From Alphaproteobacteria bacterium (GTDB lineage: Bacteria; Pseudomonadota; Alphaproteobacteria; Reyranellales; Reyranellaceae), in the NCBI GenBank assembly GCA_016870115.1, contig VGCH01000017.1, positions 1-58,963 on the forward strand: a DNA stretch of 58,963 nt, in the 5' to 3' direction. Below are positions 46,717 through 51,857 of this stretch, piece after piece. The position numbers and the translations under genes are program-made. Below the pieces are notes generated by a model that saw only the letters and a program-made list of their open reading frames with translations, ran no database searches and had not been told where the DNA came from. How positions within the stretch are numbered: position 1 is the first letter of the stretch; every line of letters starts with the position of its first letter.

Positions 46717-47847
46717 TCACTCAAACCAGTGTGGCACGAACCGGCTGGTGTTGCGGGTGATGCGGCGGTCGTCCTCGCGCATGCCGATGCCGGCGGCCTC
46801 GCCTGCGATCACCCACGATCCAACCAGCGCGTGGTTGCCGTCGAACACCGGCAGCGGACAGTAGCTCTGCCAGACATAGCCCTCGCCCGAATAGGTGCCG
46901 CCTGCCGTGTCGAAGAGGCCGGGGCCGGAGATGGTGACGTTCTGGCCTTCGCGACCGAACACCGGCTTTTTCACGCGCGCCGGACCCAGCGCCTCCCGCT
47001 CCTCGCCAAAGGCGGGCAAGAGATTCGGATGGTCGGGAAAACCGTCCCACAACAGCGCCAGCAGGAGCTTGTTGGACAGGATCATCTTCCAAGCGGGCTC
47101 GATGAACGCCGTGGTGTCGGTGAGCACGTGCCGGCCGAACTCTTCGCGCGCCATCCACTCCCAGGGATAGAGCTTGCCCATCACCTGGATTGGCCGGTCG
47201 TCGGGATCCATGAAGCGACGGCCGTTCCAGCCGACCTCAGGCACGGCCATCGGCCGCGTGCCTAGTCCGGCCTGGATCGCGGTGTCTCGCAGATACTCCG
47301 AGGTCGCGAGATCTTCGGGATGATCCTCGAAGCGCGCGAAGTGGATCGTCGACTCCGGCGGCAGTTTGGCCGCAATGCCGCGCCAACCTTCGATCAGCCG
47401 CTCGTGAATGGAGTTGAACTGGTCGGCGTCCGGCCGCACGTCCTTCAGCCAGTACCACTGCACGACGGCGGCCTCGTAGAGCGAGGTTGGCGTGTCGGCG
47501 TTGTACTCCAGAAGCTTGGGCGGCGAGCGGCCGTCATAGACAAAGTCGAACCGTCCGACGAGGGAGGGGTCCTGGCGCCGCCAAACCCGCTCGATGTAGT
47601 CGCCCCATTCCTCGGGGATGTGCATCGACTTCCAGAGCCGGTTGGAGACGATGTGCTCGACGGCCTTGAGGCAGAGGGACTGCAGTTCCTGCGTCGCCGC
47701 CTCCAGCTCGTCGATCTGCGCCGCGTCGAAGACGTAGGCAGCCTGTTCGGTCCAGTAGAGTTTGCCGTCGAGCGTATGGAAATCGAAGCCGATTTCCTCG
47801 AGCTTGGCCTGCCAGCCGGGGCGCGGATTGACGGCGACGCGGCGCAT
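46717..47847 (-). CDS. Glutathionylspermidine synthase family protein (YjfC/YgiC-like)
   Basis: 376-aa ATP-grasp protein with only the synthetase module of the glutathionylspermidine synthase family (no amidase domain). Landmarks: WTEQAAYVFDAAQIDELEAAT, GRFDFVYDGRSPPKLLEYNADTPTS-type nucleotide and substrate stretch (about 98-122), KLYPWEWMAREEFG, and KKPVFGREGQNVTI near 290, which carries ATP-binding residues. True GspS activity has been doubted for the short YgiC/YjfC forms; the acceptor may be another peptide or amine. It is the last of a DUF350, DUF1190-like, synthetase trio, the same set as E. coli yjfL-yjfM-yjfC. Confidence 0.9.
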   Translation of the reverse strand: MRRVAVNPRPGWQAKLEEIGFDFHTLDGKLYWTEQAAYVFDAAQIDELEAATQELQSLCLKAVEHIVSNRLWKSMHIPEEWGDYIERVWRRQDPSLVGRFDFVYDGRSPPKLLEYNADTPTSLYEAAVVQWYWLKDVRPDADQFNSIHERLIEGWRGIAAKLPPESTIHFARFEDHPEDLATSEYLRDTAIQAGLGTRPMAVPEVGWNGRRFMDPDDRPIQVMGKLYPWEWMAREEFGRHVLTDTTAFIEPAWKMILSNKLLLALLWDGFPDHPNLLPAFGEEREALGPARVKKPVFGREGQNVTISGPGLFDTAGGTYSGEGYVWQSYCPLPVFDGNHALVGSWVIAGEAAGIGMREDDRRITRNTSRFVPHWFE

Positions 47848-47850
47848 CGC

Positions 47851-48246
47851 TCAGCTGGAGACGGCGCCGCCGCCCGACGAGGAGTGGCTCTGTGCTGTCG
47901 AGCCGAAGCCGCCGCGCTGCGTGGTCGTTGTGCCGCTGGGCGGTGGCGCGTCGACGCGGCCCGGTGAGGTTGTCGGGCTGGTGGAGGTCCCGGTGCGGCC
48001 GGTGAGCGCCGATCCAGGCGGTTCCGGAACGGGCGCCGCGATCGGCCCGCGATAGAACGGATTTCCGAAGAAAAGGAGATGCGGCATCCCGCCGACGGTG
48101 CTGCCAACGGTCGGGGCGCAGGAATAGAGCAGCGCCGCGCCCGCGACGCCCATGATCGCGAGCTTCACGCCGGTGGACATGCGGCGCGCCGGCGGCTGGA
48201 CCGGAGCGGGCGGGACCTGGGCGGACGACGACGGATCGTAGGTCAT
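47851..48246 (-). CDS. Membrane-anchored Ser/Gly-rich protein with a DUF1190-like tail (YjfM/YgiB-like)
   Basis: 131 aa. Pro-rich N-terminus, one membrane or lipoprotein-like segment GVKLAIMGVAGAALLYSC (about 26-43), then a low-complexity region ending QRGGFGSTAQSHSSSGGGAVSS. That ending resembles the C-terminal RGGFG(S/T) tail of DUF1190 proteins YgiB and YjfM, which sit beside the same synthetase in Enterobacteria. Most of the DUF1190 body is missing, so it is a short functional analogue or a reduced member. 3 bp before the synthetase gene. Confidence 0.65.
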   Translation of the reverse strand: MTYDPSSSAQVPPAPVQPPARRMSTGVKLAIMGVAGAALLYSCAPTVGSTVGGMPHLLFFGNPFYRGPIAAPVPEPPGSALTGRTGTSTSPTTSPGRVDAPPPSGTTTTQRGGFGSTAQSHSSSGGGAVSS

Positions 48247-48257
48247 GGCGCGCTCCC

Positions 48258-48668
48258 TCAGGCGGTGAGACAGGCGGCGTTGATCAGGCCGAAACCCAGC
48301 GCCAGGCCGCCGGCGGCCGTGCCGGCGGCGGTTTCGCCATACTCGATCTGGCGGCGCAGATCCGGGAGCAGCAGGCGGGTCGCCAGGTGGACGGCGATCT
48401 GAACGACAAGCGCCACGCCGGCCCAGAGCGTGACGTCGACCAGGCTATGGGACTGCCGGATGGTATTGGCGAGCGGCAGGCAGAAGCCCAGCAGGGCACC
48501 GGCGAAGGCCAGTGCGGCGGCAGGATTACCCGCGCGGATCAGCGTGATCTCCTTCCACGGCGTCACCAGCGAGTAGATCCAGAGAAACAGGATCACGAGC
48601 GCGAATCCTGCGATCAGATAACGCAGGAAGTTAGGGAACGCCGAGGCGAGCCACTGCAGTTCGGGCAT
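48258..48668 (-). CDS. DUF350 membrane protein (YjfL-like)
   Basis: 136 aa with four predicted helices: LRYLIAGFALVILFLWIYSLVTPW, AALAFAGALLGFCLPLANTI, LVDVTLWAGVALVVQIAVHLA, and TAAGGLALGFGLINAACLTA. The first-helix WIYSLVTPWKEITLIRAGNPAAAL motif is diagnostic of DUF350. Function is unknown, but the family repeatedly neighbours glutathionylspermidine-synthase-like genes. 11 bp upstream of the DUF1190-like gene in one operon. Confidence 0.85.
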   Translation of the reverse strand: MPELQWLASAFPNFLRYLIAGFALVILFLWIYSLVTPWKEITLIRAGNPAAALAFAGALLGFCLPLANTIRQSHSLVDVTLWAGVALVVQIAVHLATRLLLPDLRRQIEYGETAAGTAAGGLALGFGLINAACLTA

Positions 48669-48686: not shown

Positions 48687-49454
48687 TCAACCGTGCATGG
48701 TCAAGCCGCCCGATACGCTGATCGTCTGGCCGGTGATGAAGGCGGCGTCGTCGCTGGCAAGGAAGCACACGGCGCCCGGGATATCCTCGGGCTGGCCGAC
48801 GCGCTTCATCGGGATGGCGCCGACCAACGCGGCCCGCACCTTCTGGCCACGCTCGTCGTCGCCGGCGACGGCGGCCAGCAGCGGCGTGTCGGTCGGACCG
48901 GGGCAAACGCAATTCAGCGTGATGCCCGAGCGGGCAACTTCGCGGGCGACGGTCTTGGTGAAGGCGATCAGGCCGCCCTTGCAGGCGGAGTAAACAGCCT
49001 CCTGCGTGGAGCCGACACGACCGGCGTCGGAGGCGATGGTGACGATCCGCCCGCGTCGGCGCTGGACCATGCCTTTCAGGACGCCATGCGTGACGTTGAG
49101 CGCCCCCTTGAGGTTGATGCCGATCAACCGGTCCCAGAGCTCGGGTTCGGTGTCGACGAAGTTCTGGAACTTGTCCCAACCGGCGTTGTTCACCAGTACG
49201 TCGGTGGGCCCCAGTGCCGCCTCGCAGCGGGCCAGTGCCGCCTGGACCCCGCCATGGTCGGCGATGTCCACCGCCTCGGCATGCGCGCGACCGCCGGCTG
49301 CGGCGATCTCCGCCGCGACGCGCCGCGCGCTCTCGCCATTGAGATCGAACACGCCCACTGCCGCGCCGTAGCCCGCGAAGCGCAGGCAGATCGCGCGCCC
49401 GATCGCCCCGCCGCCGCCGGTGACGATGACCGCTTTGCCGTCCAGTCCGCGCAT
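48687..49454 (-). CDS. SDR dehydrogenase similar to 2-hydroxycyclohexanecarboxyl-CoA dehydrogenase (BadH)
   Basis: 255-aa classical SDR. MRGLDGKAVIVTGGGGAIGRA, VLVNNAGWDKF, IASDAGRVGS, the active-site YSACK (about residues 156-160), CPGPTDTPLLA and ITGQTISVSGGLTMHG give a close match to BadH, which oxidises 2-hydroxycyclohexanecarboxyl-CoA in alicyclic acid and benzoate catabolism; related enzymes act on other 3-hydroxyacyl-CoAs. It sits 10 bp after a crotonase gene, matching a beta-oxidation-like pair, with acyl-CoA dehydrogenases on the other strand 2 kb away. True substrate is open. Confidence 0.88.
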   Translation of the reverse strand: MRGLDGKAVIVTGGGGAIGRAICLRFAGYGAAVGVFDLNGESARRVAAEIAAAGGRAHAEAVDIADHGGVQAALARCEAALGPTDVLVNNAGWDKFQNFVDTEPELWDRLIGINLKGALNVTHGVLKGMVQRRRGRIVTIASDAGRVGSTQEAVYSACKGGLIAFTKTVAREVARSGITLNCVCPGPTDTPLLAAVAGDDERGQKVRAALVGAIPMKRVGQPEDIPGAVCFLASDDAAFITGQTISVSGGLTMHG

Positions 49455-49464
49455 CGGAGCCTCT

Positions 49465-50277
49465 TCAGATCGGTGAATAGGGATCGAAGCGCGGCTTGCG
49501 CTTCTCGAGATGGGAGGCGAGACCTTCCTTCACTTCGGGTCCGACGAAGCCCAGCATCTCGAGTGCGAGCGACGCATCGAAGCTCGGCCCCATCGCGCGC
49601 AGCCAGTTGTTGAGCGCGTACTTGGTGAAGCGGATTGAGGTCTGCGCGCCCTCGGCCAGCTTGGTCGCGACCTCGAGCCCCTTGGCCTCGAGCTGATCGT
49701 CCTCGACGCAGAGCGAGACGAGCCCGATACGCTCGGCTTCCTCACCATCCACCGCCTCGCAGAGCAGCAGATAGTACTTCGCCTTGGCCATGCCGCAGAG
49801 CAGCGGCCATACGATCACCGCATGATCGCCCGCCGTGACACCCAGTCGGGTGTGGCCATCGATGATGCGCGCTTTCTTCGACGCGATCGACACGTCGGCG
49901 AGGATGCCTGCGACCAGACCCGCGCCGACTGCCGGGCCGCGCATGGTGCTGACGATCGGCTTGGAGCAGTTGATGACGTTGTAGACAATGTCGCGCGCTT
50001 CTTTCCATGTCCGCAGCAGCGCGTTGTAGTCCTTCATGTTCTTTTCGATGATGTCGAAATCGCCGCCGGCCGAGAACACCTTGCCGCCAGCGCCCTGCAG
50101 GATCACCGAGTTGATGGTGTCGTCGCCGTCGATGTCGCGCCACACATCGACCAGCTCGCGATGCATGATGGCGTCGGTCGCGTTGTACTTGTCCGGCCGG
50201 TTCATGGTGACGCGCAGCACCTTGGGGTGCGGGCGGTCGAACACCAGCCGCTGATATCGTTTCTGCCACTCCGACAT
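49465..50277 (-). CDS. Enoyl-CoA hydratase/isomerase family protein
   Basis: 270-aa crotonase-fold enzyme. Family landmarks: [20 protein letters not shown] near residue 25, [14 protein letters not shown] near 63 (first oxyanion-hole strand), [21 protein letters not shown] near 111, and [19 protein letters not shown] near 142, where the usual Gly-rich loop carries Asp and His in the GVxAGD subgroup. A hydration or isomerisation step of an acyl-CoA pathway is likely. ATG at 50277 has GGGAG 7 bp upstream; the frame is open to 50328 without support. 47 bp after trpE. Confidence 0.9.
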
Positions 50278-50324
50278 GCATTTTCTCCCTTGCCCCGCGA
50301 GACTACGCGGCGCGGTAGGAAGGC

Positions 50325-51857
50325 TCAACGTCGGGCGTTACCGGCGTTCCACTGGCGGGAACTGGCGAAACGCACCGCCTCGTCGGCGGCTCGTACCAGC
50401 GCGCGGGCCTTGAGCACGCTCTCCTGGTACTCGGCCTCCAGGTCGGAGTCGGCGACCACACCGACGCCCGCCTGGACGTGCAGGGTGCCGTTCTTCACCA
50501 GGCCGGTGCGCAGCAGAATGCAGGTGTCCATCGTGCCGTTGGCGGCGAAGTAACCGGCGCAACCGGCATAGATGCCGCGGCGCTCGCTCTCGACCTCGTC
50601 GATGATCTGCATGGCGCGGACCTTCGGCGCGCCGGAGAGCGTGCCGGCAGGAAACCCGGCCTTCAGCGCGTCGATCGCGTCCAGACCATCCTCCAGCGTG
50701 CCCTCGACGTGGCTGCTGATGTGCTGGAGGTGGCTGTACTTCTCGATGGTGAATTGCTCGACCACGCGCACGCTGCCGAGCTTGGAGACCCGGCCGACAT
50801 CGTTGCGGGCGAGATCGAGCAGCATCAGGTGCTCGGCGTGTTCCTTGGGATCGGCCAAGAGCTTGTCGGCGAGCTCCTTGTCCTCTTCCGGCGTGGCGCC
50901 GCGCCGGATGGTGCCGGCGAGCGGGCGGATCGTGACGGTATTGTCGCGCAGACGGACCAGGATTTCCGGGCTCGAACCCACGATCGTGAAGTCGCCATAG
51001 TCGAAGAAGATCAGGAACGGCGAAGGATTGATCCGGCGCAGCGCGCGGTAGAGCGAGAGCGGCGGTAGCTTGAACGGCAACGAGAAGCGCTGCGACGGCA
51101 CGATCTGGAAGGCATCGCCCGCGCGGATGTACTCCTTGCAGGTCTCGACCATGCGCTTGAACGCATCGGGCGTCATGTTCGCCTGCGGTTCCGGCAGCGC
51201 GTCCAGCGCGTCGTCGGCATCCCGACGGAAGGGGAGCGAGCGTTCGAAATCGGCAACCGAATCGGCCAGCCTCTCCAACGCCGCATCGTAGGCGGCCCGC
51301 GCGCCGGCGTCGGCCGACGGCCACACCGGCGTCACCAGCGTGACGTTGTCTTCCAGCCGGTCGAAAATGCAGACGATGGTCGGGCGCACCATGATCGCAT
51401 CGGGAATGCCGATCGGATCCGGATTGGTATCGGGAATGTCTTCCATGTCCCGGACCATGTCGTAACCCAGGAAGCCGAACAGGCCGGATGCCATGGGCGG
51501 CAGGCTGGGCGGCATGTCGAGGCGGCTCTCGGCGAGCAGCGCGCGCAGCGTATCGAGCGGGCGTCCCTCGATCGGCTGGAACGAGTGGGCGTCGCTGCGG
51601 GCGCGGCGGTTGATCTCGGCCTGGCCCTTGCGGCAGCGCCAGATCAGGTCGGGCTTGAACCCGATGATGGAATAGCGGCCGCGGACACTGCCGCCCTCGA
51701 CCGACTCCAGCAGGAACGAATTGGCGCGACCGTCAGCCAACTTCAGGTAGGCCGACACCGGCGTTTCTAGGTCCGCGACCAGCTTGGTCCAGACAAGCTG
51801 CGGGTGGCCGGCGGCGTAGGTGCGCGCGAAGGCGTCGAACTCGGGCAGGACGCTCAT
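50325..51857 (-). CDS. trpE: Anthranilate synthase component I
   Basis: 510-aa chorismate-using enzyme that makes anthranilate with ammonia from TrpG. The tryptophan-feedback motif LLES (near residues 49-52) is intact in FLLESVEGG. Chorismate-binding domain landmarks: [36 protein letters not shown]-type stretch near 270-295, [60 protein letters not shown]. It overlaps ppiD by 4 bp, as is common in Alphaproteobacteria, but is not followed by trpG. Confidence 0.97.

Follow-up and report, generated by a model that had tools for sequence, protein, structure and literature searches.

A short C-terminal tail encoded beside YgiC/YjfC-type ATP-grasp ligases across bacterial phyla: a candidate tag for polyamine ligation

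The three genes described here lie on the minus strand of a 58,963-nucleotide stretch of alphaproteobacterial DNA (the window). They encode a DUF350 (YjfL-type) inner-membrane protein of 136 aa (48258..48668), a small anchored protein of 131 aa (47851..48246) that is the predicted substrate of the system, and a YgiC/YjfC-type ATP-grasp enzyme of 376 aa (46717..47847), predicted to be a peptide-polyamine ligase. The preliminary description had reported three open reading frames at 46717-48668, and their positions and strand were confirmed. The genes are tightly packed, with 11 nt between the DUF350 gene and the small protein gene and 3 nt between the latter and the ligase gene. Their order is identical to that of yjfL-yjfM-yjfC in Escherichia coli K-12, which bears out the proposal that this is the trio found in Enterobacteria. 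Metabolic genes precede the trio on the same strand (48687-51857), namely a short-chain dehydrogenase recognized by Pfam and, by reading only, enoyl-CoA-hydratase-like and anthranilate-synthase-component-I-like genes. Given the shared strand and gaps of ≤ 18 nt, the trio may be cotranscribed with them. A sigma-70 promoter scan found no promoter.

The ligase matches Pfam GSP_synth (PF03738, E = 1.2e-143) over residues 12-374 of 376, with no other family at E ≤ 1. It was expected to be a synthetase-only enzyme, and Pfam indeed detects no amidase domain in it. The nearest relatives in the PDB are YgiC (7uk8, E = 2.1e-95) and YjfC (7uk6, E = 1.2e-91), followed at a greater distance by trypanothione synthetase (8e-30) and the bifunctional glutathionylspermidine enzyme Gss (1.4e-22); identity to E. 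coli YgiC is 43%. Residues R99, D101, E114, N116, T119, T121, K260, K294 and R299 align with R316, D318, E330, N332, S335, S337, K498, K533 and R538 of E. coli Gss, which we take to be catalytic, Mg-binding or substrate-binding, and all nine are ≥ 95% conserved among 91 ligase ORFs. By this alignment, the window enzyme retains the ATP-grasp catalytic residues. The two enzymes differ in that Gss carries a fused amidase domain, and in that T-P-T, Glu300 and KLYPW in the window ligase correspond to S-A-S, Cys and KTWAW in Gss. Residues particular to the YgiC type are W32, E34, W131, D142-Q143 and KLYPW. RefSeq names YgiC and YjfC peptide--spermidine ligases, the underlying paper being Pederick 2023. 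They are termed peptidylpolyamine synthetases in one passage of the literature, and YgiC is described as having no Gss activity in a passage citing Sui 2012. Peptide-spermidine ligation by the window enzyme is predicted from family membership.

The DUF350 protein matches PF03994 over residues 7-134 (E = 2.9e-37). AlphaFold2 predicts four long helices with a mean pLDDT of 96.2, and the model has no match in the PDB at E ≤ 0.001. The same genome carries a second DUF350 gene (C14:73250-73627), away from its only GSP_synth match.

The small protein was said to keep only the RGGFGST tail of DUF1190, and this is correct. Its Pfam match is confined to positions 114-158 of the 159-position DUF1190 profile and is marginal (22.1 bits, the cut-off being 22); a six-frame search of the genome scored it at 20.8 bits, under the cut-off. 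In profile-profile alignment (hhalign) of the small-protein family with canonical DUF1190, the tail alone aligns, over 21 columns. An alignment of eight canonical DUF1190 members has four invariant Cys columns, whereas only one Cys occurs in the window protein, which is without the Cys-containing N-terminal and central part. By sequence, it is therefore best described as a tail-only relative rather than a full DUF1190 member. AlphaFold2 predicts one long helix, at residues 25-42 (48121..48174), which would serve as membrane anchor; the remainder is modeled with low confidence as disordered except for a four-residue helix. Cys43, immediately after the anchor, is invariant in six family members, and its LYSC context may be a lipobox. 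A second short motif, FYRGP (residues 64-68), occurs between anchor and linker. It is seen as well in the tail proteins of two comparison sets, A3 and A5, with YYGPxY as the A3 consensus. The C-terminal region consists of the RGGFG motif (residues 111-115, 47902..47916), proposed to be a docking element, and a spacer plus end, STAQSHSSSGGGAVSS (residues 116-131, 47854..47901), the free carboxylate of which is the proposed acceptor.

To ask how regularly such tails accompany ligases, 80 loci were selected by ligase sequence alone, using 11 ligases against genome contigs and two ligase peptide patterns. A tail gene was defined as a same-strand ORF that ends ≤ 3 kb upstream of the ligase and whose last 60 residues include [GS]GFG. 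Of these loci, which are the best-matching of at least 590 ligase relatives, 76 have a tail gene upstream. Its end lies ≤ 35 nt from the start of the ligase profile in 73 cases, and the other distances are 94, 110 and 676 nt. Among 1295 opposite-strand ORFs of ≥ 100 aa in these loci, only 6 have such an ending, and one of these is the genuine tail gene of locus L129. Given these frequencies, the pairing exceeds chance. The four misses comprise L129, where an RGGFG protein is encoded on the other strand, L134 (Mucilaginibacter), which has an EGFG variant, and L089 and L103, where no tail was found at the locus. As assigned from record titles, the loci span about a dozen phylum-level groups, and eleven of twelve include tails: Pseudomonadota, former Deltaproteobacteria, Acidobacteriota, Verrucomicrobiota, Planctomycetota, Actinomycetota, Nitrospirota and four others with single loci. 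The twelfth, Bacteroidota, is represented by L134. No tail was found beside distant or bifunctional GspS-type enzymes (zero of six loci, E. coli gss among them).

Closer to the window, the small protein is present in 36 of 75 genomes of the window's family. Tail and ligase are side by side in all 30 family loci fetched, the window's included, which were found via the small protein with its tail and are not independent of it; the exact RGGFG occurs in 29, and the remaining locus (L025) has [GS]GFG. Among 31 ligase loci (L034-L064), 30 from the window's class (again including the window and G052) plus the E. coli yjfC locus, a tail occurs in 28. The exceptions are E. coli YjfM with RGGYG, L060 with NAGFG and L049, for which a wider stretch (L159) contains a divergently encoded RGGFG protein. 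In six further YgiC-type loci of the class (L150-L155), a tail occurs in four; L151 has RGGLG, and no tail was found at L154, the locus of a second ligase copy. A tail not conserved in homologues was one of two outcomes by which the preliminary description would have been refuted, and both the 30 family loci and the 80 ligase-chosen loci show the tail to be conserved. Two tandem tail proteins precede a single ligase at L113:3163-3966 and L136:2697-3991, an arrangement that would be expected if the tail were a tag.

The other such outcome, a lack of co-occurrence across genomes, was likewise not seen, as tail and ligase accompany each other. DUF350 was seen in 60 of the 80 ligase-chosen loci, a lower bound given the limited stretches fetched, and in none of the eight fetched Acidobacteriota stretches (L079, L095, L096, L097, L103, L106, L107 and L122), seven of which have a tail. 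On this basis, the core unit is probably the tail protein plus ligase. The conserved trio is better viewed as a conserved pair to which DUF350 appears to be an optional addition.

A profile of the tail alone was run on 240 genomes of the window's class. At E ≤ 0.01, 17 of 21 matches are directly beside a ligase. One of the others is in G266, on a 3511-base contig that ends 175 bases past the tail gene and has DUF350 upstream. The remaining three, located elsewhere, are in frames of 30, 38 and 817 residues and we take them to be chance matches. Of the 21 matches with E of 0.01-0.1, three are near a ligase, two of them adjoining it and the third being the divergently encoded L159 gene; the other 18 are elsewhere. 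The profile is insensitive, missing true tails in G052 and G071, and absence by profile means little. The idea of a wider set of tail proteins in every genome was dropped, as at E ≤ 0.05 only 16 of 26 genomes have matches, any ligase-side genes counted in, and just two of them have two.

The proteins that carry the tails are diverse and mostly unrecognized by Pfam. Only 17 of 77, the window's included, match DUF1190 at E ≤ 0.01, and of ten tail proteins from diverse loci, none reaches any Pfam cut-off. The idea that the bodies are unrelated was dropped, as 71 of 76 fall into a single chained cluster at E < 1e-3; we think this is partly due to low complexity and the shared anchor.

The 76 tails from the ligase-chosen loci allow the anatomy of the region to be described, with the caveat that the selection rule itself requires GFG. 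The residue directly before [GS]GFG is R in 67 of 76, position -2 is S in 34 and position -3 is V or I in 47. For 64 of 76 tails, 7-13 residues separate [GS]GFG from the C-terminus, the mode being 10 (27 tails). The last residue is S in 39 tails, G in 27, E in five, T in two, and A, L or M in one each. Among 74 distinct tails, the entropy at C-terminal positions -1, -2 and -4 is below that in all 2000 within-tail shuffles, and that at -3, -5 and -6 is not; relatedness among the sequences was left in for the shuffles as well as for the counts. With the RGGFG core and positions -1, -2 and -4 constrained and most of the intervening residues free, the tail seems to have two constrained parts, RGGFG and the extreme end, joined by a loose spacer. 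The region had been characterized as a Ser/Gly-rich tail; its conservation holds up, and what is conserved is RGGFG and the last residues rather than the Ser/Gly-rich stretch.

Acidic residues are scarce in the tails, with D and E together contributing 10 of 1131 tail residues versus 552 of 6804 body residues. Only eight of 76 tails have any D or E, and two have lysine. The window tail has neither D nor E from RGGFG to its end. Thus, in most tails, the alpha-carboxylate would be the sole target for an amide ligase. Five Acidobacteriota tails end in Glu, and thus carry a side-chain carboxylate.

We propose that the small protein is a dedicated substrate of the ligase, with RGGFG docking on the enzyme and the C-terminal carboxylate receiving a polyamine before the protein is exported, a reading that we consider somewhat better than an even bet. 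The R-[GS]-G-F-G of the tail would bind the ligase, and the flexible spacer, mostly 7-13 residues, would let the terminal carboxylate reach the ATP-grasp active site. In glutathionylspermidine synthetase, this is where the glycine at the end of glutathione is activated. The ligase would activate the tail carboxylate and form an amide with a polyamine, which would place a positively charged amine on the terminus of a membrane-anchored envelope protein. The protein would be exported after ligation, with its tail facing outward, and DUF350 may act as an optional membrane partner. The role of the tail as acceptor, the C-terminal attachment, the choice of amine and the order of ligation before export are all elements that we infer. 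C-terminal amidation is proposed because the terminus is the only carboxylate in most tails and is the same group that Gss uses. The mixed last residue, most frequently S rather than uniformly Gly, argues against the proposal, as do the side-chain carboxylates of the tails ending in Glu, the absence of a tail at L089, L103 and L154 and the tail-profile matches located elsewhere. Topology does so too. Anchored tail proteins look N-in/C-out, based on a basic N-terminus before the helix and, in relatives, cysteines after it. With this topology, a cytosolic ATP-dependent ligase would have to act before export, which may be possible for proteins of 100-200 residues. The suggestion that the ATP-grasp enzyme has the tail as its substrate gains indirect support: the narrow distance to the C-terminus, the constrained last residues, the few acidic residues and the absence of the tail beside the six GspS-type enzymes are all consistent with it.

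The identity of the amine is less clear. In the window genome, rated 100% complete, a search for AdoMet decarboxylase gave no match. Two spermidine-synthase matches, one exceeding the cut-off, are in frames 747 and 1001 aa long. There are also two matches to the N-terminal domain of ornithine/arginine/diaminopimelate decarboxylases, one of which also matches NspC below the cut-off. Given no AdoMet decarboxylase match and the long frames of the spermidine-synthase matches, it is doubtful that the amine used in this genome is spermidine itself; homospermidine fits, as a guess. Genes like E. coli SpeE occur in five of the 80 ligase loci, where a query with E. coli SpeD found no match. A divergent AdoMet decarboxylase (~ 50 bits) is encoded directly beside the ligase at G177:C1:41873-42217 and G282:C2:141751-142095. 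With such neighbors in only two of 240 genomes, the enzyme was rejected as a regular operon member.

These uncertainties bear on a variant of the scheme, in which the amide forms elsewhere than on the terminal carboxylate, or in which some other amine takes the place of the polyamine, an amino acid or an aminopropyl compound for instance. The window genome's want of an AdoMet decarboxylase match and the two genomes with a divergent one beside the ligase would both fit such chemistry, but YgiC and YjfC are named spermidine ligases and a D or E is available in only eight of 76 tails, and we regard the variant as highly improbable. A different possibility is that the tail binds another partner, such as DUF350, PspA-type proteins or itself, with the ligase merely sharing a stress operon. 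Genes for PspA, DUF2491 and DUF350 do occur in such operons, as in E. coli yjfI-yjfC and in the part of the literature consulted (PMC11237479). We nevertheless consider this improbable, as the tail accompanies the ligase in Acidobacteriota stretches in which no DUF350 was found, and as most of the tail-profile matches at E ≤ 0.01 (17 of 21) adjoin ligases.

Harder to set aside, if still rather unlikely in our estimation, is that the tail is a docking peptide only, bringing the ligase to the membrane, where the polyamine would be joined to some other peptide or small acid. GspS itself acts on a small peptide, and a constant motif core with a variable spacer would fit docking. There are also no tail-ligase fusions: in 164 ligase ORFs, a set with some fragments and overlapping loci, neither the N- nor the C-terminal extensions contain the motif. 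However, docking alone needs neither a constrained C-terminus nor a narrow distance to it, and leaves unexplained why the tail has so few acidic residues. Modification of the tail itself remains the reading that we prefer. Modification of the graspetide type was also considered. In graspetide-type RiPPs, side chains of Asp or Glu in the core serve as the acyl groups, and this class was rejected for lack of such residues, both in the window tail and in most others.

Comparison with known systems places the window locus among established gene associations. E. coli YjfL-YjfM-YjfC resembles it in gene order and in the three families, and YjfM ends in a related tail (SRGGYG...GHWGG). YjfM differs from the window small protein in having the Cys-containing part, and the E. 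coli operon includes yjfI, yjfJ and yjfK, whereas no such genes adjoin the window trio among the neighbors read. At the E. coli tolC locus, YgiB has an RGGFG tail and is encoded directly upstream of YgiC, as in the window. Unlike the window protein, YgiB is longer and contains cysteines, and unlike at the window, no DUF350 gene is named in the 7-kb stretch. Gss shares its ATP-grasp domain and catalytic residues with the window ligase, but the E. coli gss locus is without a tail. Operons with PspA, an ATP-grasp ligase, DUF350 and DUF1190 were described by Ravi et al. 2024, who consider DUF1190 a metal-chelating lipoprotein (PMC11237479). The gene association is like that of the window, and the section on these operons (section 19) makes no mention of the tail. 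In Pfam, DUF1190 is still without an assigned function. In the open-access literature searched, we found no link between tail and ligase, though earlier mention elsewhere is possible, and the literature consulted names no natural substrate of YgiC or YjfC.

The trio is thus already known, and its tail-only partner is a variant; the pairing of tag and ligase is the part worth testing. As the tag would mark substrates by sequence, what YgiC and YjfC act on becomes testable. More broadly, the tails may signal a widespread modification, in which envelope proteins with a two-part C-terminal tag, R-[GS]-G-F-G followed after a spacer by an end of small residues, are capped on the terminal carboxylate with a polyamine by a dedicated ATP-grasp ligase from the adjoining gene. 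The rest of the substrate would be free to change or to shrink, as in the window, with the tag fixed across phyla. We judge the chances for and against this general form to be evenly balanced. Such a modification would be easily overlooked, given so short a tag on differing bodies, few of which match DUF1190. It would, if real, be common to about a dozen bacterial groups.
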